From: Nesterenkonia aurantiaca
GTDB lineage: Bacteria > Actinomycetota > Actinomycetes > Actinomycetales > Micrococcaceae
DNA: 64,000 bases
Assembly: GCF_004364585.1 (NCBI RefSeq)
Contig: NZ_SOAN01000003.1
Coordinates: 186,001 to 250,000 of the forward strand
Direction of reading: 5' to 3'
The translations under genes and the position numbers were made by a program. Below the pieces are notes generated by a model. The model was not told the DNA's origin. It saw only the letters and a list, made by a program, of their open reading frames with translations, and ran no database searches. Shown one piece after another: positions 12,411 to 29,958 of the stretch (the first letter of the stretch is position 1; each line of letters starts with the position of its first letter).

Positions 12411-12461
12411 GACCGCCGCCTGCCGCGACCCTCCGCCGAGGAGAGGGGTCATCCCGTCTCC

Positions 12462-12522
12462 GGGGCGGAAACGGGTGCTCTCAGCTCGCGTGAAGGGGCG
12501 ATTCCGCCCGTTCGCGCCCCAG
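12462..12522 (+). repeat. 61-bp palindromic repeat, copy 1
   Basis: Starts GGGGCGGAAACGGGTGCTCT and ends ATTCCGCCCGTTCGCGCCCCAG. The two ends are imperfect inverted repeats of each other around a variable core. Same length and ends as copies at 12577, 28724 and 29807. Confidence 0.8.
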
Positions 12523-12540
12523 CGCGGCGGTCGAAAGCCC

Positions 12541-12565
12541 TGAAGTCCGCTGAGCGGAGACTTCA
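12541..12565. repeat. Hairpin between two 61-bp repeats
   Basis: TGAAGTCCGC (12541-12550), loop TGA, GCGG then AGACTTCA (12554-12565): a ten-pair stem with a two-base bulge, lying exactly between repeat copies 1 and 2. Confidence 0.55.
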
Positions 12566-12576
12566 TCCCCGTCACT

Positions 12577-12637
12577 GGGGCGCAAACGGGTGTTCTCAGC
12601 TCGCCCGACACAGCCATTCCGCCCGTTCTCGCCCCAG
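12577..12637 (+). repeat. 61-bp palindromic repeat, copy 2
   Basis: Starts GGGGCGCAAACGGGTGTTCT, ends CCGCCCGTTCTCGCCCCAG. With the flanking CT at 12575-12576, the outer arms CTGGGGCG/CGCCCCAG are perfect. It shares the first 28 or so bases almost unchanged with copy 1. Confidence 0.8.
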
Positions 12638-12643
12638 CAACAC

Positions 12644-12703
12644 GAAAGACGGCGCGCGGGCGCGAAAGACGGCGCGCGGGCGCGAAAGACGGCGCGTGGG
12701 CGC
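12644..12703. repeat. 20-bp tandem repeat, three copies
   Basis: Unit GAAAGACGGCGCGCGGGCGC at 12644, 12664 and 12684 (the third has one C-to-T change), followed by a decayed partial copy. No spacers, so not CRISPR-like. Confidence 0.8.
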
Positions 12704-12744
12704 TGAAAAGCAGGGCGCGGGCGAGCGTCGTCGTCGTTCTGGGG

Positions 12745-13542
12745 CTAGTCCGCCGTGAAGAAGGCCTTGAGCACGGCCGAGAAGACCTCGGGCTTCTCCG
12801 CGTGGACCCAGTGACCCGCGTCCTTGATCGTCGTCAGGCTCACGCGCGGGAACAGCGCCCGCATGGCAGGAGCGAAGTCATCCTGCACATAGTCGGACTC
12901 GGCTCCGGCGATCCAGAGCACGGGGCCCTCGAACGTCTCGTCCGTGAACTCCGGGAAGCCCCCGATCTGCGGCAGCGACTCATGGAGCAGGTCCAGATTC
13001 ACCCGCCAACGGAACCCCTCGCCGTCGCGCGCCAGGCTCTGCAGCAGGAAGCCGCGGACCATCCGCTCGGGGATCGGCTCCTGCAGGAGCTCATCAGCCT
13101 CGCCGCGGGAGGAGAGGCCTGCCAGGTCCAACCGGCTCAGACTGCTGATGAGATGATCGAATTCACCCATGGACTCCCGGGCGACCGGTGAGATGTCGAC
13201 GACGGCGAGGCGGCTGATCAGCTCCGGATGGCGCAGGGCCAGCACCATGGCGACCTTGCCCCCCATGGAATGCCCCACCAGATGCACCGGAGCCTCGCTG
13301 GCCACGGTGCGACGCAGGTGATCCGCGACCATATCTGCCTGCTCGACATAATCGAAGCGCTGGGTCCAGTCGGAGGCGCCGTGGTTGGGCAGATCCAGCA
13401 GGACAGAGCGCAGCTCGGGGGAGAGCGCCTTCGCGATCTGGGTGAAGTTCTTACCCTGCCCGAACAGCCCGTGCAGGAACACCACGGTCTCGCCAGACTC
13501 ACCCAGCTGCGCAACGTTGAGTGAGAATGTTTCGGCAGTCAC
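12745..13542 (-). CDS. Alpha/beta fold hydrolase
   Basis: 265 residues. Oxyanion-hole motif VVFLHGLFGQGKNF, then DLPNHGASDW, the nucleophile elbow VGHSMGGKVAMVLAL (Ser), an acid after the cap in LWIAGAESDYV, and the catalytic His in DAGHWVHAEKP. The set matches YbfF/PldB-like esterases that act on acyl-CoA or carboxylic esters. GTG 13542 is preferred over ATG 13572 because AGGAGAGA lies six bases before it. It is divergent from guaA. Confidence 0.88.
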   Translation of the reverse strand: MTAETFSLNVAQLGESGETVVFLHGLFGQGKNFTQIAKALSPELRSVLLDLPNHGASDWTQRFDYVEQADMVADHLRRTVASEAPVHLVGHSMGGKVAMVLALRHPELISRLAVVDISPVARESMGEFDHLISSLSRLDLAGLSSRGEADELLQEPIPERMVRGFLLQSLARDGEGFRWRVNLDLLHESLPQIGGFPEFTDETFEGPVLWIAGAESDYVQDDFAPAMRALFPRVSLTTIKDAGHWVHAEKPEVFSAVLKAFFTAD

Positions 13543-13674
13543 GATGAGTCTCTCCTGTTCACAGGTGTGCATCTGGTCCCGATCATCCTACGGCGGGCCC
13601 TCGACGGGTTTTCAAGCAGGCGACCTGTGAGCAGGACCTCCGGGGCAGGGCGGTGCGCCGCGGGTGCTGTCGCT

Positions 13675-13680
13675 TAGGAT
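13675..13680 (+). promoter_or_regulatory. guaA: -10 element for leaderless guaA transcript
   Basis: TAGGAT, exactly six bases before the GTG at 13687, with no Shine-Dalgarno sequence. Confidence 0.6.
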
Positions 13681-13686
13681 GGGACG

Positions 13687-15309
13687 GTGACTTCTCAGCC
13701 TGATTCCGCAGACTCTGCCGTTCCCGCCGTGGAGCGCTCGAACTCCGAGGCCCAGACCGTGCTGGTGGTGGACTATGGCGCGCAGTATGCCCAGCTCATC
13801 GCCCGCCGCGTCCGCGAGGCCCGGGTCTACTCCGAGGTCGTCCCGCACACCCTCGCCGCGAAAGAGATCATCTCGCGCAATCCCTCCGCAGTGATCCTCT
13901 CCGGCGGGCCCTCTTCGGTCTACGCCGAGGGTGCCCCCGAGGTGGAGACCGAGCTCTTCGAGGCAGGCATCCCGGTGATGGGCATCTGCTACGGCTTCCA
14001 GGCCATGGCTCACAGCCTCGGCGGCGAGGTGGCCCGCACCGGCGATCGCGAATACGGCAAGACCGAGGTGCGCAGCGTCAACGCCCCGCATTCGCTGCTC
14101 ACCGGCACCGATACGGTCCAGTCCACCTGGATGTCGCACAGCGACTCCGTGCAGCAGGCACCGGAGGGCTTCGAGGTCCTGGCCTCCTCGGAAGGCGCTC
14201 CCGTCGCAGCCTTCGCCGACGAGGCGCGCAGGCTCTACGGCGTGCAGTGGCATCCGGAGGTGCGCCACTCGCCCCAGGGCCAGATGGTCATCGAGAACTT
14301 CCTCTATAACGGTGCCGGCCTGACCCCCGAGTGGACCACCGGCAACATCGTCGAAGAACAGGTCGCCGCGATCCGCGCCCAGGTCGGGGACGCCCGCGTG
14401 ATCTGCGGACTCTCCGGCGGCGTGGACTCCGCCGTGGCCGCCGCCCTCGTGCAGAAGGCCATCGGAGACCAGCTGACCTGCGTGTTCGTCGATCACGGAT
14501 TGCTGCGCGAAGGTGAGGCCGAACAGGTCGAACGCGATTTCGTCGCCGCCACCGGCGCGAAGCTCTATGTGGCCGATGAGCGGGAACGCTTCCTCGCCGC
14601 ACTTGAGGGCGTCACCGATCCCGAGACCAAGCGCAAGATCATCGGCCGGGAGTTCATCCGGGCCTTCGAAGGCGCCGAGAAGGCGGTGCTCGCCGAGGCG
14701 GCCGCCGACGGCGCCACGGTCGAGTTCCTGGTCCAGGGCACCCTCTACCCCGACGTCGTGGAATCCGGCGGCGGCGAGGGTGCGGCGAACATCAAGTCCC
14801 ACCACAACGTCGGCGGGCTGCCCGAGGACATGGTCTTCAAGCTGGTCGAGCCGCTGCGCGCGCTGTTCAAGGACGAGGTCCGGGCCGTCGGTGCCGAGCT
14901 GGGACTGCCTGCCGAGATCGTCCAGCGTCAGCCGTTCCCGGGGCCCGGGCTGGGCATCCGGATCATCGGTGCGGTCTCCGAGGACAGGCTGCGGATCCTG
15001 CGCAAGGCCGATGCCATCGCCCGTGAGGAGCTCACCGCCTCCGGGCTGGACCAGGAGGTCTGGCAGATGCCGGTGGTGCTGCTCGCCGACGTCCGCTCCG
15101 TGGGAGTCCAGGGCGACGGCAGGACCTACGGCCACCCGATCGTGCTGCGCCCGGTCTCCTCCGAGGACGCGATGACCGCAGACTGGTCACGGCTGCCCTA
15201 TGAGCTGCTCGCCAAGATCTCCAACCGGATCACCAACGAGGTCGAAGAGGTCAACCGGGTCACCCTGGATGTCACCTCCAAGCCGCCAGGCACCATCGAA
15301 TGGGAGTGA
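13687..15309 (+). CDS. guaA: GMP synthase (glutamine-hydrolysing)
   Basis: 540 residues. Converts XMP to GMP using ATP and glutamine-derived ammonia, the last step of guanine nucleotide synthesis. The N-terminal class I glutamine amidotransferase has the catalytic Cys in GICYGFQAM and His/Glu in VQWHPEV. The ATP pyrophosphatase has the P-loop [15 protein letters not shown]. The C-terminal dimerisation domain includes [12 protein letters not shown] and ends KPPGTIEWE, the invariant GuaA tail. About 18 extra residues precede the usual start; the GTG is supported by its promoter spacing. DUF456 follows 12 bases downstream. Confidence 0.97.
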
Positions 15310-15321
15310 GTCAGACGACTC

Positions 15322-15834
15322 ATGCTTGATGCTCCCTCCGCCGAGGCGATCACCACCGTCGTCGCCGGACTCCTGCTGGTGCTCGGCGCGCTCGGCGTGG
15401 TGCTCCCGATCCTGCCGGGTTCGCTGCTGATCGTCATCACCCTGATCGTCTGGGCGGTGCTGCTGGGTGGCCCGGTGGCCTGGCCCGCGGCGATCTTGGG
15501 CGTGGTCCTGGCCGTGATCGGCTGGGGCAGCTCCACGGTGCTCACCGGTCGATCGCTGCACCGGCAGCAGATTCCGCGCGGGCCGATCATGATCGCGATC
15601 CTCACGGCACTGATCGGGCTGATCGTGTTCCCGCCGCTGGGGCTGTTCATCGGTTTCGCCGCAGGGCTCTTCGGCGCCGAATTCGTGCGCCGGGAGCGCG
15701 ACTGGCGTGCCGCTGGGACCGCGAGCCTGCATGCGCTGCGCGCCGTCGGGCTCGGGATCGTGCTCGAATTTCTGCTCGCCGGGCTCGCGATCTCCTCGTT
15801 CCTGATCGGCTCGCTGATCCACTTCTGGCCCTGA
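15322..15834 (+). CDS. DUF456 domain-containing membrane protein
   Basis: 170 residues with four hydrophobic segments (VVAGLLLVLGALGVVLPILPG, then a second helix, PIMIAILTALIGLIVFPPLG and a C-terminal helix). The LPILPGSLLIV and GLFIGFAAGLFGAEFVRRERDWRAA stretches are the DUF456 glycine-rich repeat, which forms glycine-zipper-like helices. Function unknown. The gene is close behind guaA, probably co-transcribed. Confidence 0.87.
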   Translation: MLDAPSAEAITTVVAGLLLVLGALGVVLPILPGSLLIVITLIVWAVLLGGPVAWPAAILGVVLAVIGWGSSTVLTGRSLHRQQIPRGPIMIAILTALIGLIVFPPLGLFIGFAAGLFGAEFVRRERDWRAAGTASLHALRAVGLGIVLEFLLAGLAISSFLIGSLIHFWP

Positions 15835-15930
15835 CCCGCGGCCGACCGGCGGCTTCAAGGTCAGGCTGAGACCGATTGCGGGTTGTGCCGCCGGGATCAT
15901 TAGACTTCACTGCATGTAATTATCGGCGAT

Positions 15931-15956
15931 CCTCGTCGTCCCTGAGGGAGACGAGG
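15931..15956 (+). other. Leader hairpin 1 upstream of the helicase-like gene
   Basis: CCTCGTC-G-TCCC, loop TGA, GGGA-GACGAGG: an eleven-pair stem with one bulge. A possible -10 (TAGACT, 15901-15906) lies upstream, so this and the next hairpin would fall in the 5' leader. Confidence 0.5.
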
Positions 15957-15959
15957 GTG

Positions 15960-15985
15960 CCGGAATGGGCGTGAGCCCATTCCGG
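15960..15985 (+). other. Leader hairpin 2 upstream of the helicase-like gene
   Basis: CCGGAATGGGC, loop GTGA, GCCCATTCCGG: a perfect eleven-pair stem ending 22 bases before the start codon at 16008 and only three bases after hairpin 1. It could be an attenuator or a stabilising element. Confidence 0.55.
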
Positions 15986-16007
15986 TGGGGATTGTGGAAG
16001 GTCGTCT

Positions 16008-19000
16008 GTGAGCAAAGAACCAGCCGCTGAGGAGTGGGACCTGCCGTCCGAGAATGGGCCCGCAGCAACTGCGCTGGAGCATCAGCACCGTGACAACGAG
16101 GACGACGCCGCCCCTGCGGCCTCGGACTCGCCCGGTTCCGCGCAGTCCCCGAGATCCGCGCAGTCTCCTGGATCCGTAGACTCCGCGAGCTCGGCTGCAT
16201 CGGCGTCGACCCCAGAGTCGCCCGGATCGGCCGATTCCGCAGACTCGGCCGGGTCGCCCGGCTCACCGGACTCAGCAGACTCACCGGCGTCCCCGTCCTC
16301 ACCCGCGTCCGCGGGCTCTGCGGCGTCCCCAGATTCGACGCCCTCGGCACCCTTGGCCAAGAACGGCCGCGACCCGGTCGCGGCCTGGCTGGAATCCGTG
16401 GGCTCGGGGACCGAGAACGACACGATGCTGCGGTTCTCACCGAGCCAGCACAATGCCATCGACCTCACCGACGCAAACTCTTCGGGGATGATGCAGCTGA
16501 TGGCGGGGCGCAAGACCCGGCTCTCCACGCTGCTCAACGATCAGCACGCCTTCACCATCGGCAAGCAGGCCGCCCAGGGCATCCGGGCCAAGACCCGCGA
16601 GATGTCCGAGGAGCGCGGAATCGACGTCGGCTTCCTCGCCGCCGGCGTGGTCAGCTGGACCGAGGATGCCGGTCAATCCTCCTCGGGGGAGCAGTTCACC
16701 GAGGACTTCACGGCTCCGGTCATGCTGGTGCCGATCACCCTGCGTCCGCGGGAGGACGGCAGTGGCGACTTCGAGATCCAGTTCAGCGCGGCCGCCCGGC
16801 TTAACCCTGCCCTGATCCGTCACCTCGCCACCCGACATGGCACCCGGCTGGACCCGGTGGAGTTCCACAGCTCCGGCTATGTGACCGCCCGCTTCGATCC
16901 CAGCCGTCCCGCAGATGCGCTCGCCCGGATCGCCGGAGGCGTGGACACCATGCACTCGGTGCAGGTGTGGCGACAGCTCTACGTCTCGACCTTCGCGGAC
17001 CTGACCTTCCTGGGAGACCCCACCGGGCTGGATCTGGATCACCCCGTCATCCGGGCCATGGCCACCGGTAAGCCGCTGGGCCAGGCTCGTGCCGAGCTCG
17101 CCCGCAAAGACCTGCCCCCGGTGGATGAGCGGGAGCCCCGCGACGAGCGCCTGGTCGCGGACGCCGATCCGCACCAGCAGGCAGCGCTGGACGCGGTGCT
17201 CGCCGGGCAGTCCGTGGTGGTCTCCGCCCCCGCCGGCACCGGTCAGACCCAGACCGCGATCAACGCCGCGGCCGGTCTGGCCTGGCAGGGCAGACGGGTG
17301 CTGGTCCTCGCCGAGCGCACCGCCACCCTGGAGCAGTTCAAGAACCGGCTCTCCGAGGTCCATCTGGGCACGCTGGCCGGCAACATCTCTGCCGCCGGGA
17401 CCTCCGAGGAGATCCGGGATCAGCTGATCCGCGCCATCCGCCGCAATGAGCGGGCCGAGCCGCCTCGGCTGGGAACCCTGCAGACGAAGCTGAAGAAGTC
17501 CCGCCACCAGCTGGTGGAACACGTGAAGTCGCTGCACAATGTGCGCCGCCGCTGGGACTGCTCGCCCTACCAGGCCATGCAGGCCCTGGCCGCGCTGACC
17601 AGCCTGAGCCCGGCGCCGTCGACCTCGGTCCGGCTGAAGCGCTCGGTGCTCGACAACACCGTGGACCGCAGCCAGATCACCGTGAAGCTCAAGCGCGCCG
17701 CCGAGCTGGGTGCCTTCTCCGCCGAGACCCGCGACAGTCCCTGGTTCAACGCCCGGCTCTCCAACCGACAGGAGACCCGGGACGCGATGGCCCTGGTCAT
17801 CGAGCTGCGCGAGCAGCTCCCGGAGCTGAGACAGATGATGGTCTCCGCCTGCGAGGCCGCCGGGATCACCCCGGGTGCCAGTTTCAGCGAGTGGAACAGC
17901 CAGGTGCTGCTCTTCCAGCGGGTGCAGGAATCCCTGGGCAGGTTCAGCCACGACGTCTACGCCCGCGCGGTGGACGATCTGATCGCTGCCACCGCCCCGG
18001 GGTGGTGGCGTCGGCAGAACAACGTCGAGATGACCTCGGTGACCCGCTCCCGGCTGCGTCGGCTCGCCAAGGAGTACGTGCGCCCCGGCGTCGCCATCGG
18101 TGATCTGCACTCCTCGCTGATCGATGTGCAGTCCGAGCGGGAGGAATGGAACCAGTGGTCCCTCTCCGGCTCCGCGCCCAAGGTGCCGCACCGGTTGGAC
18201 GCGCTCTGTGACGCCTTCGGGAAGGTCCAGGCCCGGCTGCAGCGTCTTGATGAGGTGCTCGAGACCGGGTCGCTGACCGAGATGCCCATTGAGGTGCTGC
18301 TGGACACCGTGGAGACCCTGGCTGCCGATGAGAAGCCGCTGGAGACCCTGCCCGAACGCACGCTGCTCGGGGAGCAGCTGCGCGAGCAGGGCTTCCGGGA
18401 CCTGATCGAGGACTTCTCCGAGCGCGAGATCAGCGCGAGCGTGGTCGCCGAGGAGCTGGAGCTCGCCTGGTGGCAGTCCGCGCTGGAGGCGATGATCTCC
18501 GGGGACGACTACCTGGCGATGACCACCGGTGAGAACCTGCGCAGCGTCGAGGAGACCTTCCGCAGCTCCGACGCCGGCCACATCGAGTCCAGCGCGCAGC
18601 GCCTCGGCCATGCCCTGGCGGTGCGCTGGAAGTCCGCCGTGGAGGCCCATCCCCAGGCCGCCGCGGATCTGCGCGCCCTGCTGCGCGACGCCACGCCCAC
18701 CATCGAGGCCCTGGAGACGATCAATTCCAAGGTGACCCAGCCGCTGGTCCCGATCTGGACCACCTCGCCGCTGGGGCTCGGGGAGCAGTTCCCGCCCGAG
18801 TACCGCGCCGATGTCGTGATCCTGCTCGACGCCGAGTCGCTCGCCGTGCCCACGGCGCTGAACGCGGTGACCCGGGCCGAACAGGTGGTGGCCTTCGGTG
18901 ACCCGGTGGCCGGTTCGCCCACCCCCTTCCACGTCTCCGCCGACCCGGTGGCGCGCGAGACCGAACAGCCACGCCCCGCCTCGATCTACGACGAGCTGGC

Positions 19001-20204
19001 CGCCGTGCTGCCGCACCATGCGCTGCGTCAGGTCCATCGCGGAGTCGACCAGGAGCTCACCGGTCTGCTCTCCTCCGCGCTCTACGACGGCGAGCTCACG
19101 CGACTTCCCGACGCCGCGCAGCTGACCGGTCAGGATCGCCGCTTCACCGTGGAGCTGGTCGCAGGCATCCAGGCCGGGTACCGCGACGCCGTGGAATCCC
19201 CGACCGGTGAGGTCAACCGGGTGGTGGACATGGTCTTCGAGCATGTGCGCTCCCGACGCGGGCACTCGCTGGCCGTGATCACCGGCTCCGCCTGGCACGC
19301 CCGCCGGGTCGCCGACGCGATCCGGTTGAACCTGGCCAATCATGCGTGGGCGAAGCCGTTCTTCACCGAAGGCGCCCACGGCGAGAGGTTCGTGGTGACT
19401 CCGGTGGAGCGCGCCTCCGGCCTGGTCCGCGACGACGTGATCTTCAGCCTCGGTTTCGGCCGCTCGGTGAAGGGCGAGGCGGCGACCCGCTTCGGGGAGC
19501 TCTCCGAGGTGCGCGGCCGTGAGCACTTCGCGATCGCGCTGACCCGGGCTCGGGAGCATCTGCGCGTGGTCACCTCGCTCTCGAACGCGGATATGTACCG
19601 CGACTCGCTGACCTATGGCGCCCGTGAGATCTATGACCTGATCAGGCTCGGCCTCGAAGGCTCGGACAACCCCACTGCCTCGGCGCAGCTGACCGATCCG
19701 CTGGTGCTGGATCTGGTGGACCGGATCCGGGCGCGCGGCGGGCGGGTCGAGGACGGGTTCCGCGGGACCCTCGATCTCGCGGCCTGCTCCCGCAGGTTCA
19801 CCTCGGATCAACCCATGGTGCCGGTGGCGATGGTCTCCGACGGGACCAAGAGCTACGGCGCCATGTCGGTGCGCGAGCGCTCCCGTCAGCGTCCCGCCGC
19901 CTTCGAGGCGCTGGGCTGGAGCTATATGGCGCTGTGGACCATCGAGGTCTTCTCCAACCCGGTGCGCTGCACGGAGGTCGTGGCCGAACAGGTCGGCCTG
20001 GCCTCAGGGCCGGAGTTCGCCGAAGCGGGCCGGATCACCGTGCAGACCGCAGGTGAGACCCCGCGCGGCCGCCGAGCCCGCGAGCAGGATGCCCGCGGCG
20101 AAGGCATCCGCTTCGGAGGCGCGGCGGACCTCGAGGACGAGGATTCCCACCGCAAGTCCAAGAAGTGGCTGCCGCCGCGGGAGCGCGGGGCATGGAAGCC
20201 GTAG
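16008..20204 (+). CDS. Large SF1-helicase/nuclease-like protein with altered catalytic motifs
   Basis: 1398 residues. Residues 1-120 are a Ser/Ala/Pro/Asp low-complexity tail (SADSAGSPGSPDSADSPAS). The first helicase lobe begins near 395 (DPHQQAALDAVLAGQSVVVSAP); its Walker A reads PAGTGQT, with Gln413 where ATPases have Lys. The second lobe carries LLDAES (941-944; normally DEAx), AFGDP and an intact motif VI-like IALTRAREHL. The C-terminal 120 residues resemble the restriction-endonuclease-like domain of MTES_1575-type helicases: LDLAAC, VSDGTKSYG, RERSRQR, ALGWSY, SNP. The expected acidic residue before DG is Val. I infer a DNA-related protein that may be catalytically reduced. It overlaps the next gene by 13 bases. 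Confidence 0.78.
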   Translation: MSKEPAAEEWDLPSENGPAATALEHQHRDNEDDAAPAASDSPGSAQSPRSAQSPGSVDSASSAASASTPESPGSADSADSAGSPGSPDSADSPASPSSPASAGSAASPDSTPSAPLAKNGRDPVAAWLESVGSGTENDTMLRFSPSQHNAIDLTDANSSGMMQLMAGRKTRLSTLLNDQHAFTIGKQAAQGIRAKTREMSEERGIDVGFLAAGVVSWTEDAGQSSSGEQFTEDFTAPVMLVPITLRPREDGSGDFEIQFSAAARLNPALIRHLATRHGTRLDPVEFHSSGYVTARFDPSRPADALARIAGGVDTMHSVQVWRQLYVSTFADLTFLGDPTGLDLDHPVIRAMATGKPLGQARAELARKDLPPVDEREPRDERLVADADPHQQAALDAVLAGQSVVVSAPAGTGQTQTAINAAAGLAWQGRRVLVLAERTATLEQFKNRLSEVHLGTLAGNISAAGTSEEIRDQLIRAIRRNERAEPPRLGTLQTKLKKSRHQLVEHVKSLHNVRRRWDCSPYQAMQALAALTSLSPAPSTSVRLKRSVLDNTVDRSQITVKLKRAAELGAFSAETRDSPWFNARLSNRQETRDAMALVIELREQLPELRQMMVSACEAAGITPGASFSEWNSQVLLFQRVQESLGRFSHDVYARAVDDLIAATAPGWWRRQNNVEMTSVTRSRLRRLAKEYVRPGVAIGDLHSSLIDVQSEREEWNQWSLSGSAPKVPHRLDALCDAFGKVQARLQRLDEVLETGSLTEMPIEVLLDTVETLAADEKPLETLPERTLLGEQLREQGFRDLIEDFSEREISASVVAEELELAWWQSALEAMISGDDYLAMTTGENLRSVEETFRSSDAGHIESSAQRLGHALAVRWKSAVEAHPQAAADLRALLRDATPTIEALETINSKVTQPLVPIWTTSPLGLGEQFPPEYRADVVILLDAESLAVPTALNAVTRAEQVVAFGDPVAGSPTPFHVSADPVARETEQPRPASIYDELAAVLPHHALRQVHRGVDQELTGLLSSALYDGELTRLPDAAQLTGQDRRFTVELVAGIQAGYRDAVESPTGEVNRVVDMVFEHVRSRRGHSLAVITGSAWHARRVADAIRLNLANHAWAKPFFTEGAHGERFVVTPVERASGLVRDDVIFSLGFGRSVKGEAATRFGELSEVRGREHFAIALTRAREHLRVVTSLSNADMYRDSLTYGAREIYDLIRLGLEGSDNPTASAQLTDPLVLDLVDRIRARGGRVEDGFRGTLDLAACSRRFTSDQPMVPVAMVSDGTKSYGAMSVRERSRQRPAAFEALGWSYMALWTIEVFSNPVRCTEVVAEQVGLASGPEFAEAGRITVQTAGETPRGRRAREQDARGEGIRFGGAADLEDEDSHRKSKKWLPPRERGAWKP

Positions 20205-20575
20205 GCAACGGGCCTGATGAGGCCGGTTCGGATCACGCTGCCTCGGGGAGCGCCGGTCCTGGCGGGGCCGGACGGGCCGGTTCTGGTGGCGCCGGACGGG
20301 CCGGTTCTGGCGGGGCCGGGCGGAGGCCACGACGGCGCGTGGTCGCGCCGCCGACCTCGGGACAGTCCCATGCCGTGGAGTCTGACTTCACCGACCCCTT
20401 CAGCCAAGACGAGGTGCCCCTGGGGCACGGCGCCGGGTCCTCGGAACAGGCTCCGGATCCTGCGGGGGAGCGGGCCCCTGGCGAGCCGCGCCCCTCGCAG
20501 CGCCGAAGCCCCGAGGCGCCCTTGACGGACCATGAGCAATGGATCCTGAGTCAGCGGCCCCCACACTGGGGTTGA
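20192..20575 (+). CDS. Small hypothetical protein with RPPHWG tail
   Basis: 127 residues, unrecognised. The ATG at 20192 lies 13 bases inside the end of the helicase-like gene, so translation is probably coupled. The N-terminal half is Gly/Ala/Ser-rich and includes two and a half copies of an eight-residue AGRAGSGG unit (24-bp repeats at about 20262-20320), then RRPRRR. The C terminus LTDHEQWILSQRPPHWG is compact and aromatic and looks like a conserved peptide. It is likely functionally tied to the upstream protein because of the overlap; the role is unknown. Confidence 0.6.
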   Translation: MEAVGNGPDEAGSDHAASGSAGPGGAGRAGSGGAGRAGSGGAGRRPRRRVVAPPTSGQSHAVESDFTDPFSQDEVPLGHGAGSSEQAPDPAGERAPGEPRPSQRRSPEAPLTDHEQWILSQRPPHWG

Positions 20576-22032: not shown

Positions 22033-22104
22033 CGAGTTCCTCAGAGGTGAAGGGTGCTGGACGGTCGGGTGCACCGGCCAGACTGTGGCAATACTGCCAA
22101 TCAA

Positions 22105-22809: not shown

Positions 22810-22814
22810 GGACC

Positions 22815-23972
22815 TCAGCCCCGCAGTTCCGGCTGCAGGAGGCTGGCTCGCAGAGACTCTGCGGCGTCGGCCAGATTGGGGGAGAAGGTGAACTGGGCGC
22901 TCAGGCGCAGCAGGGCAGCCCGCTCATAGGCCTCCAACGCATCTGCGGCGACACCGTTCCGGTAGGCGGCGTCGTTGATCAGTCGGAAGACCACCGCGCG
23001 ACGGGGAGCGTCCCACAGCCCGCGCAGCTCGTTCCACTTCGCGCAGGCACGCAGCCCGCCCAAGTCCAGTGCGGGGTGGGCCCAACCGGCGCTGGAGACC
23101 TTCACCAGTGCCGGTCCCACCTCCGGGGAGTAGAGCAGATCTTCATCGCGCAGCTGCCGGTGGGCAGGCACCATCCGACGCTCGGGGATCGAGGCCAGCG
23201 CTTCACAGGCAGTCCTCACGTTGCGCTGGAACAGCTCCGAACCGACGATATAGGGCCTGACCAGGGCCTCCCAGCGCTGCAGGCGGCGGATCTCCGTGGC
23301 GGCCCCGTGCACCGGGGTGCTCGCGGGCAGCTCGCCCGGGTGCTGGATCGCGGTGGACCACGCGTCCAGGGACTGCTCCCAGGCGGTCTCCCATGCCTGC
23401 GCGCCGATCCGGTGAGGTCGGTGCAGCGAAACGCCGGTCAGCGCCTGGAACGTGGCGGTGGAGTCACCATGACTGATCAATCGGGGAAGCCTGAACGGAC
23501 CGGAGAACGCCTGCGCCCGCCGCATGCCCGCGAGCAGATCGCTCGCCCCACCAGCGGGCAGGACGACGGTGTAGGTCTCATTCGCCTCGTCGCGATGCCG
23601 CACCACTGCACGCAGGCCGGGTTCGTGGGCGATCACGAGACCGCCCCGGGCGGCCTGCTGCAGGGCGGGCAGGGCGGGATCCGTGTTCGGCGGAAACAGT
23701 TCCAGGTGTTCCCTGTGCCTGGCGGCACCCCCGTGGTGCTCGACCCGGAAATACCCGGCTCGTCGGGCGCGCCGTGACCCGCCGGGGCTCGAGGCTGCCG
23801 GGCCTGATGCTTCTGCGGCTGAGGATCCGGCGGGCTCGGGATCCTCTAGGGCGGTGACCTCCACCGTCAACACCTGCGGCCGTCCTGGGACCGGCCAGGC
23901 TCGCTCGACAGACCAGCGTGCATCCTCGGCCCACAGGGGGCGCGAGGGCAGCGATGCGGCGGGGTCAAGCAT
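22815..23972 (-). CDS. Phosphotransferase-fold protein, probable pseudokinase
   Basis: 385 residues, not confidently named. The architecture follows aminoglycoside-phosphotransferase-like kinases: a substrate-side N lobe, a helical middle (LARLISHGDSTATFQALTG-like region) and a catalytic-loop equivalent PAHRQLRDEDLLYS, then a metal-loop equivalent VKVSSAGWAHPALDLGGL. In active relatives these read H-x-D-L-H and D-F/W-D. Here the catalytic Asp is Gln and the metal-binding Asp is missing, so kinase activity is doubtful. ATG 23972 is used because AAAGGAA precedes it; ATG 24008 is possible. Co-directional with the cyclo-ligase gene. Confidence 0.65.
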   Translation of the reverse strand: MLDPAASLPSRPLWAEDARWSVERAWPVPGRPQVLTVEVTALEDPEPAGSSAAEASGPAASSPGGSRRARRAGYFRVEHHGGAARHREHLELFPPNTDPALPALQQAARGGLVIAHEPGLRAVVRHRDEANETYTVVLPAGGASDLLAGMRRAQAFSGPFRLPRLISHGDSTATFQALTGVSLHRPHRIGAQAWETAWEQSLDAWSTAIQHPGELPASTPVHGAATEIRRLQRWEALVRPYIVGSELFQRNVRTACEALASIPERRMVPAHRQLRDEDLLYSPEVGPALVKVSSAGWAHPALDLGGLRACAKWNELRGLWDAPRRAVVFRLINDAAYRNGVAADALEAYERAALLRLSAQFTFSPNLADAAESLRASLLQPELRG

Positions 23973-24063
23973 GCTCGGGGCGTTCCTTTCGACCGGTTCG
24001 GCTCCCACCAGCTTAGGCCCGAGGAGCCGGAGGGGATCGAGGCAGGCCGGGTGCCCCGCGATT

Positions 24064-25737
24064 TCAGAGCCAGGAATCGATCCAGATCCGCATGCGCCAT
24101 TGCTCGTAGGGAATCAGCTCTGCGGTCCACAGCGGGAGGAAGAACACCGACACGGCCACACACAGCATCACGAAGCAGAGCAGGATCACGGTGTTGCGCT
24201 GACGTGCGGCCACGATCGTGGCCGCGGGGCGCTGGGTCCCGCCAGGACGCTGAGCCGCAGTGCCGACGCGCAGCACCAGGGCGGCGATCGCGGTGAGCGC
24301 CAGGATCAGGAACGGGTGATAGCTGATCGCGTAGAAGAAGAACGTGGTCCGGTCCGGGAAGAGCAGCCAGACCAGGTGTCCTGCCACGAAGCCGGAGAGG
24401 ATCGCGCCGTAGCGCCAATCTCGGCGCCCGGCCCAGAGCAGCGTCACCAGGATCAGCGCGATCAACCCGCTCCACCAGATCAGTGGATTCGCCAGGTCCA
24501 GGACCGCTGAGGAACAGGTCTCCGCGGCGCAGGTCTCCCCGGTCTGTGCGTAGGTCTCTCCGGCGGAGACCGAGTCGTAGTGCATCGAGACCGGTCGGCC
24601 CATGAACGGCCAGGTCCAGGGGGTGGAGGCGTAGTCATGTCCGCTGCTGAGTCCCTGATGGAAGTCCGTGGCGGAGACATGGTAGTTCCAGAGTGATCGC
24701 AGCGGATCCGGCACCAGCCGGGCCAGCCCCTCAGCCGGGTGGGAGAGGTGCCATTGCCGGCCCCAGCCTCCCTGCGTGGCCAGCCAGCCGCTCCAGCTGG
24801 CCAGGTAGGTGCTCGCCGCGAGGGGCAGCACCGTGACCACCGCCGGGAGGGCGTCCTTGAGCATCCCGGATCGGGCCCAGCGTTCGATCCCGGCAAGGCG
24901 TCTGGCCTGCAGGTCCCAGAGGATCACCATGATGCCGAACACCGCGAGGAACGCCAGCGCTGAGAGCTTGACCGCCACCGCCGCGCCCAGCAGCACGGCC
25001 GCCAGAAGCCGAAAGGGCCGAACTCCCAACCACGGCCCGCCGGCCCTGTGCCCCTCGGCGCCCGGGTCGACCGCCCAGGCGGCCAGCCGCCGTCGTCCGC
25101 TGTATCGATCCAGCAGCAGCGCGCCGAAGGCCGCGAGGCAGAAGAGCATCATGAAGATGTCCAGCAGGCCCACTCGGCTCATCACCAGGTGGTGGCCCTC
25201 GATCGCGGTGAGGATCCCGGCGAACGCGCCAAGGAAGACCGAGCGGAACATCCTCTGCGCGATGAGCGCGATCAGCAGCACCGCCAGGGTGCCCGCCAGC
25301 GCCCCCGAGATCCGCCAGCCGAACGCGCTCTCGGTCCCGAAGACCCGCAGCCCCAGCGCGATCAGCCATTTGCCCAGCGGCGGGTGCACCACGTAACCGC
25401 CCTCACCGGTGGGCTGCGGCTCACCGGCCAGCCAGGAATCGTCGGCGTCCTCCGGCCAGACCAGCTCGTAGCCGGCGAGCATCAGCGCGTACGCATCCTT
25501 GGCGTAATAGGTCTCGTCGAACATCAGCAGGTGCGGGGTGGCGAGATCTCTGATCCGCAGGATTCCGGCGAAGAGCGTGATCATCCCGGGCAGGATCCAG
25601 CCCCAGAGCCCCGGCCGGTAGGCCTCGGCCTCGAGCCGGCGCTGCATCCGGGAGAGGCTGCCGGACTCCGGCTCGGTGAGGCGTCCGGTCACCCCGGCGG
25701 GGGCCGGAGTGCTGCGGACAGGCTCGGCGGGGTTCAC
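24064..25737 (-). CDS. Dolichyl-phosphate-mannose-protein mannosyltransferase (GT39)
   Basis: 557 residues with about ten membrane helices. Transfers mannose from polyprenyl phosphate to Ser/Thr of secreted proteins. Family motifs: LFAGILRIRDLATPHLLMFDETYYAKDAY, with the catalytic Asp-Glu pair; HPPLGKWLIALGLRVFG, GWRISGALAG and the lumenal loop W..HP. The DE of FDETYY and HPPLGK are diagnostic for PMT/POMT. The frame extends 230 codons further, but antisense to rsmI. GTG 25737 (VNPAEP) is used because TAGCAT lies seven bases ahead. Divergent from rsmI, a very common actinobacterial pair. Confidence 0.92.
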   Translation of the reverse strand: MNPAEPVRSTPAPAGVTGRLTEPESGSLSRMQRRLEAEAYRPGLWGWILPGMITLFAGILRIRDLATPHLLMFDETYYAKDAYALMLAGYELVWPEDADDSWLAGEPQPTGEGGYVVHPPLGKWLIALGLRVFGTESAFGWRISGALAGTLAVLLIALIAQRMFRSVFLGAFAGILTAIEGHHLVMSRVGLLDIFMMLFCLAAFGALLLDRYSGRRRLAAWAVDPGAEGHRAGGPWLGVRPFRLLAAVLLGAAVAVKLSALAFLAVFGIMVILWDLQARRLAGIERWARSGMLKDALPAVVTVLPLAASTYLASWSGWLATQGGWGRQWHLSHPAEGLARLVPDPLRSLWNYHVSATDFHQGLSSGHDYASTPWTWPFMGRPVSMHYDSVSAGETYAQTGETCAAETCSSAVLDLANPLIWWSGLIALILVTLLWAGRRDWRYGAILSGFVAGHLVWLLFPDRTTFFFYAISYHPFLILALTAIAALVLRVGTAAQRPGGTQRPAATIVAARQRNTVILLCFVMLCVAVSVFFLPLWTAELIPYEQWRMRIWIDSWL

Positions 25738-25743
25738 TATGGG

Positions 25744-25750
25744 TATGCTA
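25744..25750. promoter_or_regulatory. Overlapping divergent -10 elements for the mannosyltransferase gene and rsmI
   Basis: TATGCT on the plus strand (25744-25749) overlaps TAGCAT on the minus strand (25750-25745). The minus copy sits seven bases before the mannosyltransferase GTG; the plus copy lies about 40 bases before the rsmI ATG. Confidence 0.45.
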
Positions 25751-25789
25751 CTTGGCGCAAGCCGGTCACCGATCAGAAGCGGGCGTGTC

Positions 25790-26713
25790 ATGGAGTCAGG
25801 CGAGGCAGAGCAGCCGCAGCACACCCAGGAGCCCGATGATTCCGGCCTGTGGGACACCCCGATCGTGCTCGCCGCGACGCCGATCGGCAACCTTGGGGAC
25901 GCGACCGACCGGCTCAAGCGGCTGTTGGGCACCGCGGAGGTCATCGCCGCCGAGGACACCCGGACCGCGCGCCACCTGGCTCGGGCGCTGCAGGTCAGGT
26001 TCCACGCCCGGGTGGTGAGCCTGCACGAGCACAACGAGGCGGCGCGCTCCGAGGAGCTCGTCGAGCAGGCGCGCCAGGGGACCCGGATACTCGTGGTCTC
26101 CGACGCCGGCATGCCCTCGGTCTCTGATCCGGGGTTCCGGCTCGTGGAGACCGCCATCGCCGCCGGCGTGGGGGTCACCGTCGCGCCGGGCGCCTCTGCG
26201 GTCACCACTGCGCTGGCGCTCTCCGGTCTGCCCACCGACCGGTTCACCTTTGCCGGGTTCGTCCCGCGCAAGGCAGGTGAGCGCAAGAAGCTGCTGGACC
26301 GGCTGGCGGCCGAGGAATGGACCACGGTGCTCTTCGAGTCCCCGCACCGGATCGCCGCCACACTGCGTGAGTTCGCTGCGGCGCTGGGGGAGGACCGCCC
26401 GGCGGCGCTGGCCCGGGAGCTGACCAAGCGCTACGAGGAGGTGCTGCGCGGCGGCCTGGGCGAGCTCGCCGGCGTGGCGGCCGAGCGCCACCTGCGCGGC
26501 GAGATGGTCCTGGTCCTGGGTGGAGGTTCAACCGCCGGAACAGGCGGTGAACCGATGAGCCTGCAGGAGCTGGCCGACGTCGTGCTTCACCGGGTCGCCG
26601 AGGGGGCCAAGCTCAAGACGGCGGCCAAGGAGCTCGGGGCCGCGCATGCCGTCCCCGCCAGCAAGATCTATGATGCGGCACTTGCCCGGAGACGCGCCGA
26701 AGAGTCCAGTTGA
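25790..26713 (+). CDS. rsmI: 16S rRNA (cytidine1402-2'-O)-methyltransferase
   Basis: 307 residues. Uses SAM to 2'-O-methylate C1402 of 16S rRNA at the decoding centre. The tetrapyrrole-methylase fold shows in LAATPIGNLGDATDRLKRLL, AEDTRTARHL, VSDAGMPSVSDPGFRLV, PGASAVTTALALSGLP and FESPHRI, all RsmI signatures. The C-terminal helical part LKTAAKELGAAHAVPASKIYDAAL is the RsmI HTH-like end. ATG 25790 is chosen; earlier in-frame codons lie inside the promoter region. Divergent from the mannosyltransferase gene. Confidence 0.95.
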   Translation: MESGEAEQPQHTQEPDDSGLWDTPIVLAATPIGNLGDATDRLKRLLGTAEVIAAEDTRTARHLARALQVRFHARVVSLHEHNEAARSEELVEQARQGTRILVVSDAGMPSVSDPGFRLVETAIAAGVGVTVAPGASAVTTALALSGLPTDRFTFAGFVPRKAGERKKLLDRLAAEEWTTVLFESPHRIAATLREFAAALGEDRPAALARELTKRYEEVLRGGLGELAGVAAERHLRGEMVLVLGGGSTAGTGGEPMSLQELADVVLHRVAEGAKLKTAAKELGAAHAVPASKIYDAALARRRAEESS

Positions 26714-26779
26714 ACAGTAGAATGACGTCCAGAGCGGAGAGGCACTCCACCGCAGGGGAATCGATGGGCAGGCGGGGTC

Positions 26780-28654
26780 ATGACCGAGGAGCACGTGGGC
26801 AGCGAACATGCCGCCGAGACGAGCGGCAACCAGATCCGCGAAGCTGCCACCGCGCAGGTCGCGTGGCTGGATCCGCACACCAACGCTACTGACGGGGTCC
26901 TTGACCTCTTTGCCGCCCGCCCGAACCAGCCGGTCTACGCCGTGCCCAACGGGACCGGCGGCTGGGTGGACGTCTCGATCACCAGCTTCCTCGACCAGGT
27001 TCGTGGAGTCGCCAAGGGTCTGATCGCGCTCGGCGTCGAACCCCAGGACCGGATCGCGGTGATGGCGCCCACCGGTTACAGCTGGGCGGTGGTGGACCAG
27101 GCGATCTGGTTCGCCGGAGCGATCTCCGTGCCGATCTATGAGACCAGCTCCGCGCATCAGATCAGTGCCCTGCTCCAGGACTCCGGTGCCAAGCTTGCGC
27201 TTGCGGGAACCGTGGAGCTCCAGGACCACCTCCGCGCGGCAGCTGCGAAGCTCAATGGGAAGCGCCCCACGGTGCTGCCCATCGGCGAGGTGCTCCAGTT
27301 CGATGACCTCACCGCCTCCGGAGAGCACATCTCCGATGAGCGGCTTGAAGCCGCCCGCTCACGGGCCGGCCTGGACGACGTCGCCACGCTGGTCTACACC
27401 TCCGGAACCACCGGTCGGCCCAAGGGAGTGCGCATCACGCACCGCAACCTGGCCGAGGGCGCGGCGAACATGCTGCCCTTCGCGGATCAGATCCTTGGCG
27501 AGAACGAGTCCCGCACGCTGATCTTCCTGCCGCTGGCCCACGTGCTGGCCCGGGCGGTGCAGCTGATGTGTCTGCAGCGCGGCGTGCAGGTGGCGCACTC
27601 GGCCAGCTCCGAGAAGCTGCTCGAGGACCTTGCCAGCTTCCGCCCCACCTGGCTGCTGGCGGTGCCGCGAGTCTTCGAGAAGGTCTACCACGGCGCCTCC
27701 GCCAAGGCCCGCGCCGAGGGCAGAGGAAAGATCTTCGAGACCGCCAAGGAGACCGCCGTGGCGTATTCGAAGGCGCTGCAGGCCGAGGCCACGGGAGAGG
27801 GCCCCGGCCCCTCGATGCGGCTGCGCGCGCGGCGCGCCATGTTCGCCAAGCTGGTCTACGCCAAGCTCCATGCCCGCCTCGGCGGCAGCGTGCGCTACAT
27901 GATCTCCGGCGCCTCTTCGCTGAACCCGGAGATCGCCCACTTCTTCACCGGCGCGGGACTGCCGGTCCAGGAAGGCTACGGGCTCACCGAGTCCACGGCC
28001 CCGATCACGCTGAACATCCCCGGCGCCACGCGCATCGGCACCGTGGGCATCCCGGTGCCAGGCAACACGGTGAGGATCGCCCCGGATGGGGAGGTGCTGC
28101 TCAAGGGCCCGGTGATCTTCGACGGGTACCACGGGCAGCCTGAGGCCACGGCCGAGGCCTTCGACGCGGAGGGCTTCTTCCGCACCGGGGATCTCGGCGA
28201 CCTGGACGAGGACGGCTTCCTCCGGCTGACCGGGCGCAAGAAGGACCTGATCGTGACCGCCGGCGGCAAGAACGTCTACCCGATGCCGATGGAAGAGGTC
28301 ATCCGGGCGCATCCGCTGGTCGCGCAGGTCATCGTGGTCGGAGACGACCGGCCCTTCGTCGCCGCGCTGATCACCCTGGACGCCGATGCAGTGGCCGACT
28401 GGTGCCGGGCTCAGGGCTACCGCTCGCTCTCGCTGATCGACGCCGCCAAGCACCCCCGGCTGCGCCAGGAGATCGGTCTCTCGGTGGAGGTTGCGAACCG
28501 CAGGGTCTCCCGCGCCGAGTCCATCAGGAAGTTCGAGCTGCTCGACGTCGAACTCTCCGAAGAGTCCGGTCATATGACCGCCTCGATGAAGCTGCAGCGG
28601 CATCGGGTGCTCGCCGACTTCGAGGGCGTCATCGATTGGATCTACGCGAACTGA
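26780..28654 (+). CDS. AMP-dependent long-chain fatty acyl-CoA synthetase
   Basis: 624 residues. Activates a fatty acid with ATP and CoA. Core motifs: LVYTSGTTGRPKGVRITH (P-loop), the gate region LPLAHVLARAV, GYGLTESTAPIT, FRTGDLGDLDEDGFLRLTGRKKDLIVTAGGKNVYP, and a C-terminal basic cluster near MTASMKLQRHRVL. The length and the AVPRVFEKVYH segment place it with FadD15-like enzymes. ATG 26780 follows 66 bases after rsmI; a possible TAGAAT -10 lies at about 26718-26723, giving a leader of about 50 bases. Chain-length preference cannot be read. Confidence 0.93.
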   Translation: MTEEHVGSEHAAETSGNQIREAATAQVAWLDPHTNATDGVLDLFAARPNQPVYAVPNGTGGWVDVSITSFLDQVRGVAKGLIALGVEPQDRIAVMAPTGYSWAVVDQAIWFAGAISVPIYETSSAHQISALLQDSGAKLALAGTVELQDHLRAAAAKLNGKRPTVLPIGEVLQFDDLTASGEHISDERLEAARSRAGLDDVATLVYTSGTTGRPKGVRITHRNLAEGAANMLPFADQILGENESRTLIFLPLAHVLARAVQLMCLQRGVQVAHSASSEKLLEDLASFRPTWLLAVPRVFEKVYHGASAKARAEGRGKIFETAKETAVAYSKALQAEATGEGPGPSMRLRARRAMFAKLVYAKLHARLGGSVRYMISGASSLNPEIAHFFTGAGLPVQEGYGLTESTAPITLNIPGATRIGTVGIPVPGNTVRIAPDGEVLLKGPVIFDGYHGQPEATAEAFDAEGFFRTGDLGDLDEDGFLRLTGRKKDLIVTAGGKNVYPMPMEEVIRAHPLVAQVIVVGDDRPFVAALITLDADAVADWCRAQGYRSLSLIDAAKHPRLRQEIGLSVEVANRRVSRAESIRKFELLDVELSEESGHMTASMKLQRHRVLADFEGVIDWIYAN

Positions 28655-28723
28655 GCCGGGCTGCGGGCCGTTTGGCTGCTAGCGCCTGCGAGCGTGCGCC
28701 TGCCTGCGCCTGCCTGCCTCTGC

Positions 28724-28784
28724 GGGGCGCAAACAGGCGGAATGAACCGTTTTCCAGAGGTTGTTCCACCCGTCTGCGCCCCAG
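28724..28784 (-). repeat. 61-bp palindromic repeat, copy 3 (reverse orientation)
   Basis: Plus-strand ends GGGGCGCAAACAGGCGGAAT and TTCCACCCGTCTGCGCCCCAG. Read on the minus strand it aligns best with copies 1 and 2, with ATTCCGCC near the right end. It lies 81 bases before the endonuclease-like gene. A CTGCC/TGCGC-rich tandem stretch precedes it (about 28696-28720). Confidence 0.75.
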
Positions 28785-28864
28785 CGATCTCGGGGTTCGT
28801 GTCTCGAGGTTCAGGCCTGTGGAGAACTCGGATGTGACGCTCGGGATGGGCCAGGATGTCTCCC

Positions 28865-29791
28865 ATGCGGGAGCCTCGGGAACTGCCATCAGACCTCCAG
28901 AACACCGTCTTCACCCGTGCGGATCTGCGATCGCTGGAGCTGCATGAGGATCGGGTCCGCCGTCGGGATATCCGCTGCCTGGCTCATGGGTTCCACGTCT
29001 CAGCCGCGACGCAGCGGACCTCTCTGCAGGATGCCCTAGCCCTGGCTCGGGCCTTGCCCGACTGCTGGATCTCCCATGCCACTGCCGCCCGCCTCTATGG
29101 CTGGGAGCCGCCTCGGCGGTTGGGGGAGAGCGAGACGATACACCTGACCCAACCGCGAGAGTCGAACCGGCGGATACGACGCCCCGAGGTGATCAGCCAC
29201 CGGCAGTCCGCTGTGCTCGATGATCAGTTAACACTCGAGGGGGCTCGTGTGGCGAGCCCGGCGCGCACCTGGCTGGACCTTGCCGCCGCGCTCCAGGAGG
29301 TGGAGCTCGTGTGCTTCGGTGACCACCTGGTGCGGTCCCCGTACCCGAAGTTCGAGGGCAGACGGACTCCGTACACGACGATCGATGAGCTTCGGGCGAC
29401 CCTGGCGCGCGTGATCAGAGTTCCAGGCCGAGCGCGGGCGCTTGCAGCTCTGCCGCACGTCCGGGTGGGGGCTGACTCGGGGCCCGAGACCCGGCTGCGA
29501 CTCGCGCTGGTCCGCGCAGGGCTTCCCGAGCCGGGGCTCCAGGTGCCGCTGTCCGCGGATGATCCGCGGTCCCGATGCGCCGACCTGGGATATCCGGGAC
29601 TTAAGATCGCCATCCAGTACGAGGGCGCCAGCCACTTCACCCCGGAACAGGCGATGGCCGATCAGCGGCGGGACAACGCGTTCCTGGCTGCCGGATGGAT
29701 CGTGCTGCGCTTCAACGCCAGGGACCACGCGGAGGGCTTCGTCTCCGCGACGCGTCAGGTCCGTGGCGCCATCACGCACCGCCGGGACTGA
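28865..29791 (+). CDS. AbiEi-like HTH plus endonuclease-domain protein
   Basis: 308 residues of a type common as orphans in Micrococcales. The N terminus (FTRADLRSLELHEDRVRRRDIRCLAHGFHV) looks like the winged-helix domain of AbiEi antitoxins, followed by ISHATAARLYGW and TLEGARVASPARTWLDLAA. The C terminus (CADLGYPGLKIAIQYEGASH ... DQRRDNAFLAAGWIVLRF) is the compact restriction-endonuclease-like fold of DUF559/Vsr relatives. Function unknown; phage defence or DNA repair is possible but unproven. No partner toxin gene is adjacent. ATG 28856 is an alternative start. It is bracketed by two 61-bp repeats in inverted orientation. Confidence 0.72.
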   Translation: MREPRELPSDLQNTVFTRADLRSLELHEDRVRRRDIRCLAHGFHVSAATQRTSLQDALALARALPDCWISHATAARLYGWEPPRRLGESETIHLTQPRESNRRIRRPEVISHRQSAVLDDQLTLEGARVASPARTWLDLAAALQEVELVCFGDHLVRSPYPKFEGRRTPYTTIDELRATLARVIRVPGRARALAALPHVRVGADSGPETRLRLALVRAGLPEPGLQVPLSADDPRSRCADLGYPGLKIAIQYEGASHFTPEQAMADQRRDNAFLAAGWIVLRFNARDHAEGFVSATRQVRGAITHRRD

Positions 29792-29806
29792 CTCGCTGCG
29801 GTTCGC

Positions 29807-29867
29807 GGGGCGATACCGGGTGCTGTGGAGGGTTTCGCGCGGGATATGGCACCTGTTCTCGCCCCAG
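29807..29867 (+). repeat. 61-bp palindromic repeat, copy 4
   Basis: Starts GGGGCGATACCGGGTGCTGT and ends GGCACCTGTTCTCGCCCCAG, then CAA as in copy 2. It begins 15 bases after the stop of the endonuclease-like gene. The core is unlike the other copies. Confidence 0.75.
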
Positions 29868-29950: not shown

Positions 29951-29958
29951 TGATGACC

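Follow-up and report, generated by a model that had tools for sequence, protein, structure and literature searches.

Palindromes of one geometry bracket AbiEi/DUF559-like genes in Nesterenkonia and other actinobacteria

Results

In a 64,000-nucleotide stretch of Nesterenkonia aurantiaca DNA (the whole of which is called the window here), two palindromic elements, copies 3 and 4 of four, bracket a single gene, P0001, coding for an AbiEi/DUF559-like protein. Palindromes of the same geometry bracket homologous genes elsewhere, with arms that are shared within a locus and specific to the paralog, and matching solo copies are dispersed between other genes. With a probability that we put at about 0.6, the palindromes serve as recognition elements for P0001, a putative DNA-cutting enzyme, by a mechanism that we infer. 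In many actinobacteria, genes of this enzyme family have matching palindromes of their own on both sides, which points to a gene-plus-repeat system that is little known and may spread by itself.

Geometry and copies of the elements

The four elements are inverted repeats of ~73 bp, made of two ~28-bp arms around a free core of ~17 bp. Copy 1 (12455..12527) has type I arms, its GGGGCG..CGCCCC span being 12462-12520, and copy 2 (12570..12642) lies 115 bp after it; copy 3 (28717..28789) is upstream of the AbiEi/DUF559-like gene and copy 4 (29800..29872) just downstream. All four had been correctly located in the original prediction, which gave them a constant length of 61 bp: the constancy holds, but the GGGGCG..CGCCCC span is 59 bp in all four copies, 61 counts the trailing AG, and the palindrome extends to ~73 bp. 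The cores are largely unrelated, as had been claimed, part of the left core being common to copies 1 and 2 but not to copies 3 and 4. The copies also look intergenic as described; in the case of copies 1 and 2 this presupposes a start of the MFS gene at ~12400, which its homologue in locus L054 suggests, and not at the mechanical ORF start of 12617. In the orthologous region of copies 1 and 2 in genome G022, three copies follow each other with the same 115-bp period. A search of the window for the half-arm motif with one mismatch gave 18 matches, against 8.0 (sd 2.7) expected and at least 18 in none of 100 shuffles; one of them, GGGGCGCGAGCAGGCG (29889..29904, forward strand), is a single half-arm with no listed partner.

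Further copies, which had been anticipated in the genome and its relatives, are present, but their number is modest, with 10 sites in the own genome. A two-arm search pattern whose gap could vary between 35 and 50 matched this genome 6 times forward and twice in reverse, all eight matches spanning 61 bp, and its backwards control gave no match there. When the partner spacing was left free between 40 and 79 bp, the window and 52 Nesterenkonia loci (53 sources) yielded 67 element rows, with a span of 59 bp in 46, 60 bp in 19, and 58 and 62 bp in one each; four of these rows are places counted twice (L120 repeats L059, L129 repeats L112). A real family with conserved ends, free cores and a fixed length, as proposed, is borne out by the recurrence of that length in related species. 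The family-wide R1 search gave one weak match apiece in three genomes from a different genus (g14).

The palindromes might be RNA hairpins, acting as bidirectional terminators or mRNA stabilisers and alike in sequence by common descent. The four copies do fold strongly on both strands (z from -1.8 to -8.3), and by heuristic gene calls many solo sites lie after gene ends, others being found between convergent or divergent genes; the copies between divergent genes argue against this reading. Compensatory changes, for which a test had been proposed, give a mixed picture: the N. cremea type has an excess of them (none of 500 shuffles reach it, and 15 of 2000 do in a second shuffle test), but they do not exceed column composition in type I (469 of 500 and 1434 of 2000 as high). 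A hairpin loop need not hold one length, and an RNA function would predict neither paralog-specific arms nor an association with a single gene family, so that we regard hairpins as an improbable explanation. Rfam at gathering thresholds returned only a tRNA.

Palindromes flanking homologous genes

Bracketing was evaluated at 71 homologous loci chosen by protein homology alone, after leaving out 2 of 73 with fewer than 230 aligned residues and keeping the near-duplicates L131/L132 and L140/L141 in the bracketing and shared-arm counts. Palindromes scoring at least 18/26 occur on both sides of the gene at 31 of the 71 loci and on either side at 59. The both-sides control gave none among 46 window ORFs and none among 31 other ORFs of the same loci (0/77 together), and the either-side control 8 of 46 window ORFs. 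Arms common to both sides (at least 18/26) were found at 41/71 loci, compared with 1.3% of mismatched pairs. The 30 loci failing this test include the window's own (L131), for a methodological reason: a chance palindrome was picked downstream. Outside this family, at 40 loci of the class that were hand-picked and spread over other families, palindromes are present on both sides in 18 cases and common arms in 22, with 1.6% of 1560 mismatched pairs as the null. Bracketing is not exclusive to this protein family, since in some genomes an abhydrolase-like gene and a small ORF likewise have a palindrome on either side. The bracketing of a gene by copies 3 and 4 had not been part of the original prediction.

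The unrelated arms follow one geometry, pairing being high 9-36 bp from the centre and at background beyond (n = 38 odd-centred palindromes). For this profile the centres were chosen solely by pairing 15-28 bp out and the near-duplicates L132 and L141 were left out; in an earlier profile, with centres chosen by pairing 10-35 bp out, the flat top is partly built in.

At the 41 shared-arm loci, the upstream palindrome is centred ~72-199 bp before the start codon, and the downstream one anywhere between 13 bp ahead of the stop codon and 101 bp past it. The upstream position fits an operator without mobility, to which an AbiEi-like autoregulator would bind, the solo copies forming a small regulon and the nuclease region being used elsewhere, e.g. 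in defence. AbiEi is described in PMC3985639 as repressing its own promoter via inverted repeats; one paralog group (L142, L159-L164) has the upstream palindrome only, which suits a regulatory role, and solo sites are often orthologous between species. The operator model nevertheless leaves unexplained the matched downstream copy, the copies between convergent genes (by heuristic gene calls), the different element types at one site and the tandem copies at a 115-bp period, and we consider it unlikely.

Arm types, paralogs and dispersed sites

The window contains palindromes of other arm types: the one at 37993..38066 matches the arm beside a paralog in the same genome (G000:C8:60091, L180) at 27/28 positions, and a third type (3037..3109) matches, more weakly, the arms beside paralogs L159-L161 and also L144 (20-21/28). 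Protein and arm similarity are correlated over 57 loci, from which loci without an arm of at least 18 and the near-duplicates L132 and L141 were left out (Spearman 0.27; 0 of 999 permutations as high). This correlation is partly due to shared ancestry, the same locus being present in related genomes. Paralogs of one genome have common arms in none of 23 pairs, but their arms are as unlike (mean 0.47) as those of other pairs with comparable protein identity (0.44).

The arms from the flanks of one gene, used as a pattern, detected 15 sites in G010 and 9 in G004, and none in G012 and G018 or with the backwards pattern. Twenty of these sites (13 and 7, respectively) are away from the gene, 19 of them complete, and all 23 complete rows in the two genomes are 63 bp long at that register. 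One site is occupied by one element type in G010 and by another in N. cremea, the latter matching at 26/28 the arm beside its own paralog L176. The nine site groups checked in G000 all align with G022 site loci at 90-95%, suggesting that movement is rare or old there, and clean insertions with target duplication were not seen.

Alternatively, the elements could be MITEs that depend on a conventional transposase from another locus, their association with this gene being hitch-hiking. Terminal inverted repeats, multiple copies and intergenic positions are compatible with this, as are the non-orthologous G010 solo copies L247 and L257, which have 12 of 13 core bases in common, as if copies of one another. 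Apart from that pair, copies within one genome differ in core yet are exact in length; moreover, the copies flanking a gene are alike within the locus but not from one paralog to the next, and the link to the gene recurs in other genera and families. A MITE origin is therefore very improbable.

The protein family

P0001 (28856..29791, forward strand, 311 aa) is the proposed cognate protein, with an AbiEi-like N-terminal region and a DUF559/Vsr-like nuclease C-terminal region according to profile matches. It lies between an AMP-binding ligase gene (26780..28654, forward strand) and a gene that we take to be of TatD type (29950..31029, forward strand), which has a homologue in 30 of 30 genus genomes. 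Among 37 homologues, hand-picked mostly from loci with palindromes, the PADLOC AbiEi profile matches 34 (P0001 at 1.7e-11), DUF559 24 at E<=0.01 and MTES_1575 14; the Pfam matches of P0001 itself are below gathering scores. Pfam scans of P0001 and 36 homologues listed DUF559, MTES_1575, AbiEi_4, DUF2726 and AbiEi_1, and no transposase. Residues E211, D243, Y255, G257 and H260 are invariant in 71 homologues, and Q254, at whose position DUF559 proteins presumably have E, is found in 86%. At the P0001 locus, no AbiEii nucleotidyltransferase toxin is adjacent, the flanks being the ligase and TatD-type genes. A PDB search with the P0001 sequence gave no match, and one with a profile two insignificant ones, at E 0.25 and, to an endonuclease-like protein, at E 0.76; NCBIfam gave none for P0001 and at most one member per family among the homologues, and no relative was found in viral contigs. 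A structure predicted for the window protein and two related sequences was set aside (pLDDT 48.8). Across the class, AbiEi/DUF559-like genes are present in 91 of 216 genomes sampled (E<=1e-25).

Discussion

In the reading that we prefer, recognition by the encoded protein, a symmetric dimer of the AbiEi-like region would contact both inverted arms, and this would account for a fixed length and fixed arms with a free core. Binding to long inverted repeats is documented for AbiEi from S. agalactiae (PMC3985639). The DUF559/Vsr-like region might then nick or cut at the element, or at a hairpin formed during replication, and repair could seed or restore copies elsewhere. The gene sits between two copies of its own element, solo copies persist between other genes, and the whole would work as REPIN/RAYT systems do, but through an unrelated enzyme. 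The comparisons show the geometry, the bracketing, the sharing of arms within a locus, the paralog-specific arms and the dispersed solo copies of matching type; DNA binding, cleavage and mobilisation are proposed activities of the protein. More tentatively, at somewhat less than even odds, such pairs could be class-wide selfish or domesticated replicators in Actinomycetes, in which an AbiEi-nuclease protein recognises and propagates a private 73-bp palindrome and paralog and palindrome co-evolve as a pair. A literature search found no description of an AbiEi-nuclease gene-plus-palindrome system.

AbiEi/DUF559-like genes are widespread and so far unexplained; a private palindrome next to such a gene supplies a definite substrate and a function that lends itself to testing. 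Were the protein to maintain or spread the repeats, actinobacteria would have a chemically different equivalent of REPIN-RAYT, and intergenic palindromes that now lack an explanation could be assigned to a gene. Should the class-wide replicator reading be true, these pairs would parallel REPIN-RAYT as a non-HUH system and constitute a previously undescribed type of intragenomic element.

The original interpretation, REP- or MITE-like elements, is partly supported. Like MITEs, the elements are short and non-coding with inverted terminal repeats, but they have a fixed length and a free core and are tied to a bracketed nuclease-like gene; the interior differs among most copies, and no target-site duplication is visible by eye in the listed flanks. 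The layout is REP-like, whereas P0001 and the 36 homologues scanned are AbiEi/DUF559-like and have no Y1/HUH tyrosine transposase match, so that the palindromes are not RAYT-linked REPs. REPs are 20-40 bp long and carry a GTAG or CGTC tag. The present arms, by comparison, are ~28 bp with no GTAG tag noted, their outer ends being mostly CATC or GTTG in the Nesterenkonia types seen but CGTC at window copies 1 and 2; the genomes in which sites were counted have 10 to 15 of them. From AbiEi antitoxins of the type IV toxin-antitoxin system AbiE, whose profiles match the N-terminal region of the P0001 family and which bind long inverted repeats at their own promoter (PMC3985639), the family differs by the nuclease-like region that follows, by palindromes that lie on both sides and are dispersed, and, in P0001, by the AMP ligase and TatD-type neighbours. 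The C-terminal region resembles Vsr, DUF559 and REase_MTES_1575 (24/37 and 14/37 matches for the latter two); MTES_1575 REase is called a Vsr fold in passages of PMC3710099 that, as a difference, mention no palindrome family. With REPIN-RAYT, as PMC3116915 and PMC3733652 describe it, the elements share an intergenic inverted doublet with a free spacer, the coexistence in a genome of several types, each close to the gene belonging to it, a gene flanked by copies, and tandem arrays that take in the flanks. Here the multi-copy extragenic doublet occupies 10 sites in the own genome, 15 in G010 and 9 in G004, and the gene is flanked by its own repeat at the 41 of 71 loci with common arms.

Extent and distribution of the palindrome family

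The four repeats of the original prediction were confirmed where it had placed them, and they are more frequent than expected by chance. The family of four copies stands, and comparing the copies outward reveals a conserved arm longer than had been proposed (roughly CATCNCTGGGGCGNNAACGGGYGGAAT) and a symmetric unit of about 73 bp, found at 12455-12527, 12570-12642, 28717-28789 and 29800-29872 (copies 1 to 4). Element length with the spacing left free is 59 bp in 46 of 67 rows and 60 bp in 19. The further genomic copies that had been anticipated were sought with a covariance model, which gave 10 sites in the N. aurantiaca genome (2.95 Mb, 25 contigs), four of them inside the window. The model also matches 14 of 30 Nesterenkonia genomes at E ≤ 0.1 and, family-wide, 12 of 295 genomes at E ≤ 1e-5, nine being Nesterenkonia and three from another genus with a single weak match apiece. 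In G008, G011, G023 and G026, the gaps that appear equivalent from the sizes of their neighbouring genes hold elements of a second arm type (TGGGCR..), most of them 60 bp in length.

Only two further palindromes in the 64-kb window reach at least 19/26. The one at 38029 (37993-38066) is of another arm type, matching the arm of a paralog of the same genome (G000:C8:60091) at 27/28, and the one at 3073 (3037-3109) resembles the arms beside other DUF559-like paralogs (20-21/28 to several types); for random 28-mers from the window, the 99th percentile is 18 and the highest value 25. Short direct repeats (gcgcgggcgcgaaagacgg) lie directly after copy 2, at 12643-12705. The related genome G022 (probably N. 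sp. E16_10) carries one tandem copy more than that of N. aurantiaca.

With centres selected by pairing 15-28 bp out (38 odd-centred elements, plus 10 noisier even-centred ones), complementarity extends to 9-14 and 29-36 bp from the centre; at 37 bp and further out, and closer in than 9 bp, it is no higher than background. The fixed length of the core would favour a protein that measures distance. As for the compensatory changes that were to be looked for, shuffle tests found them in the N. cremea arm type, where covariation exceeds column make-up (15 of 2000 shuffles as high), but not in type I arms (1434 of 2000). Since either selection on a hairpin or correction of one arm by the other can produce symmetric change, covariation does not separate duplex binding from hairpin recognition.

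Palindromes bracket an AbiEi/DUF559-like gene

A gene for a 311-aa protein (28856-29791, + strand) lies between copies 3 and 4, and copies likewise enclose this gene in G022, G018 and G026. The protein matches the PADLOC AbiEi profile at 1.7e-11 and Pfam DUF559 and AbiEi_1 below threshold; certain homologues score better than it does on DUF559 and REase_MTES_1575, and residues compatible with a PD-(D/E)XK nuclease are invariant. These profiles suggest a putative AbiEi/nuclease fold.

The N. cremea homologue (48% identity) lies between two palindromes whose arms differ from those of copies 3 and 4 but whose geometry is identical, and this led to a general test of loci picked by protein. A protein-only search gave homologues in 28 of 30 Nesterenkonia genomes, one to seven each. 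Among 71 loci chosen by protein homology, palindromes of at least 18/26 lie on both sides in 31, upstream in 48, downstream in 42 and on either side in 59. The corresponding control counts are 0, 4, 4 and 8 for 46 ORFs of the window, and for 31 other ORFs from the same loci they are 2 upstream, 2 downstream and none on both sides. Both-side palindromes occur in 24/48 Nesterenkonia loci and in 7/23 from other genera of the family; arms are common to both sides in 41/71 loci at the same threshold (null from mismatched pairs, 1.3%). In other families of the class, 18/40 loci have palindromes on both sides and 22/40 have shared arms (null 1.6%).

In a paralog group of seven loci (L142, L159-L164), the flanks scanned hold a palindrome upstream of the gene (a weak one in L163) and no copy downstream; this group may represent a domesticated, regulatory form. 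The DUF559-like gene is not the only one to be bracketed: palindromes also flank an abhydrolase-like gene that adjoins a 540-aa GMP-synthase-like gene (L054, 2396/3473; L114, 3996/5033). Pairs about 600 bp apart around a small ORF of 141-169 codons (L050, 2870/3466; L109, 3842/4448; L120, 3956/4560) look like one orthologous site. DUF559-like homologues on an unverified faecal phage scaffold (L316, MT837503.1) and on two large Arthrobacter plasmids (L317, L318) have a 19-22/26 palindrome downstream, and L318 has one upstream too.

Relation between protein and arms

Protein similarity correlates with arm similarity over the 57 loci with usable arms (0.27; 0/999 permutations as high). Arms are shared (≥0.69) in 72% of the 29 pairs above 65% protein identity and in 26% of 96 pairs whose identity is 50-65%; below 50%, the share is 1% at most. 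The 23 pairs of paralogs from one genome, whose protein identity is low (mean 0.41), include none with shared arms. Since arms are equally different in other pairs of like identity, part of the correlation reflects descent of the locus.

Variation and stability of sites

Between the AMP ligase and TatD-type genes that neighbour it in the window, a DUF559-like gene is present in 7/30 Nesterenkonia genomes. It is inverted relative to the window in three of these (L206 in G019, L208 in G008, L210 in G023), with palindromes of other arm types on both sides. No DUF559-like gene was detected between the two in 10/30 genomes. It adjoins the TatD-type gene without the ligase in 2/30; the TatD-type flank as fetched lacks the ligase in 7/30 and has it on the opposite side in 4/30.

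A pattern made only from the arms of the N. cremea (taken to be G004) and G010 gene flanks, allowing up to 3 mismatches, matches 15 element sites in G010 and 9 in N. cremea, and none in G012 or G018 or with a backwards control. Away from the gene, 19/20 sites in these two genomes hold a complete element, and all 23 rows (19 solo and four gene-side copies) measure 63 bp at the pattern's register, although any spacing between 55 and 74 was allowed. The 19 solo cores all differ from one another. Two distant solo copies of G010 (L247, 1561-1623; L257, 1458-1520) agree at 12/13 core bases, possibly a trace of copying.

By BLAST, 7/7 solo loci of N. cremea align with those of G010; the L249/L263 pair has flanks 87% alike, yet its cores agree at 6/13. 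In the gap of the G010 site L254, the N. cremea palindrome has another arm type, matching the arm beside the N. cremea paralog L176 at 26/28 and the G010 type at ≤14/28. For G001 and G029 the left flank alone aligned at this site, with no palindrome of 18 or more beside it. The site loci fetched from N. aurantiaca and G022 align at 90-95%, which indicates that these sites are stable between close species.

Comparison with known systems

Both the repeat family and its link to an AbiEi/DUF559-like gene have good support. No description of palindromes linked to DUF559/AbiEi/MTES_1575/Vsr-like genes was found in the literature searched, which included few subscription papers, and a prior description may exist. 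The best account, used here as a working model, is a REPIN-like system of gene plus palindromes with an unrelated enzyme, whose biochemical steps are putative. The layout of gene plus palindrome is like that of REPINs and their tyrosine transposase gene (RAYT), whereas the enzyme proposed for the present system is unrelated.
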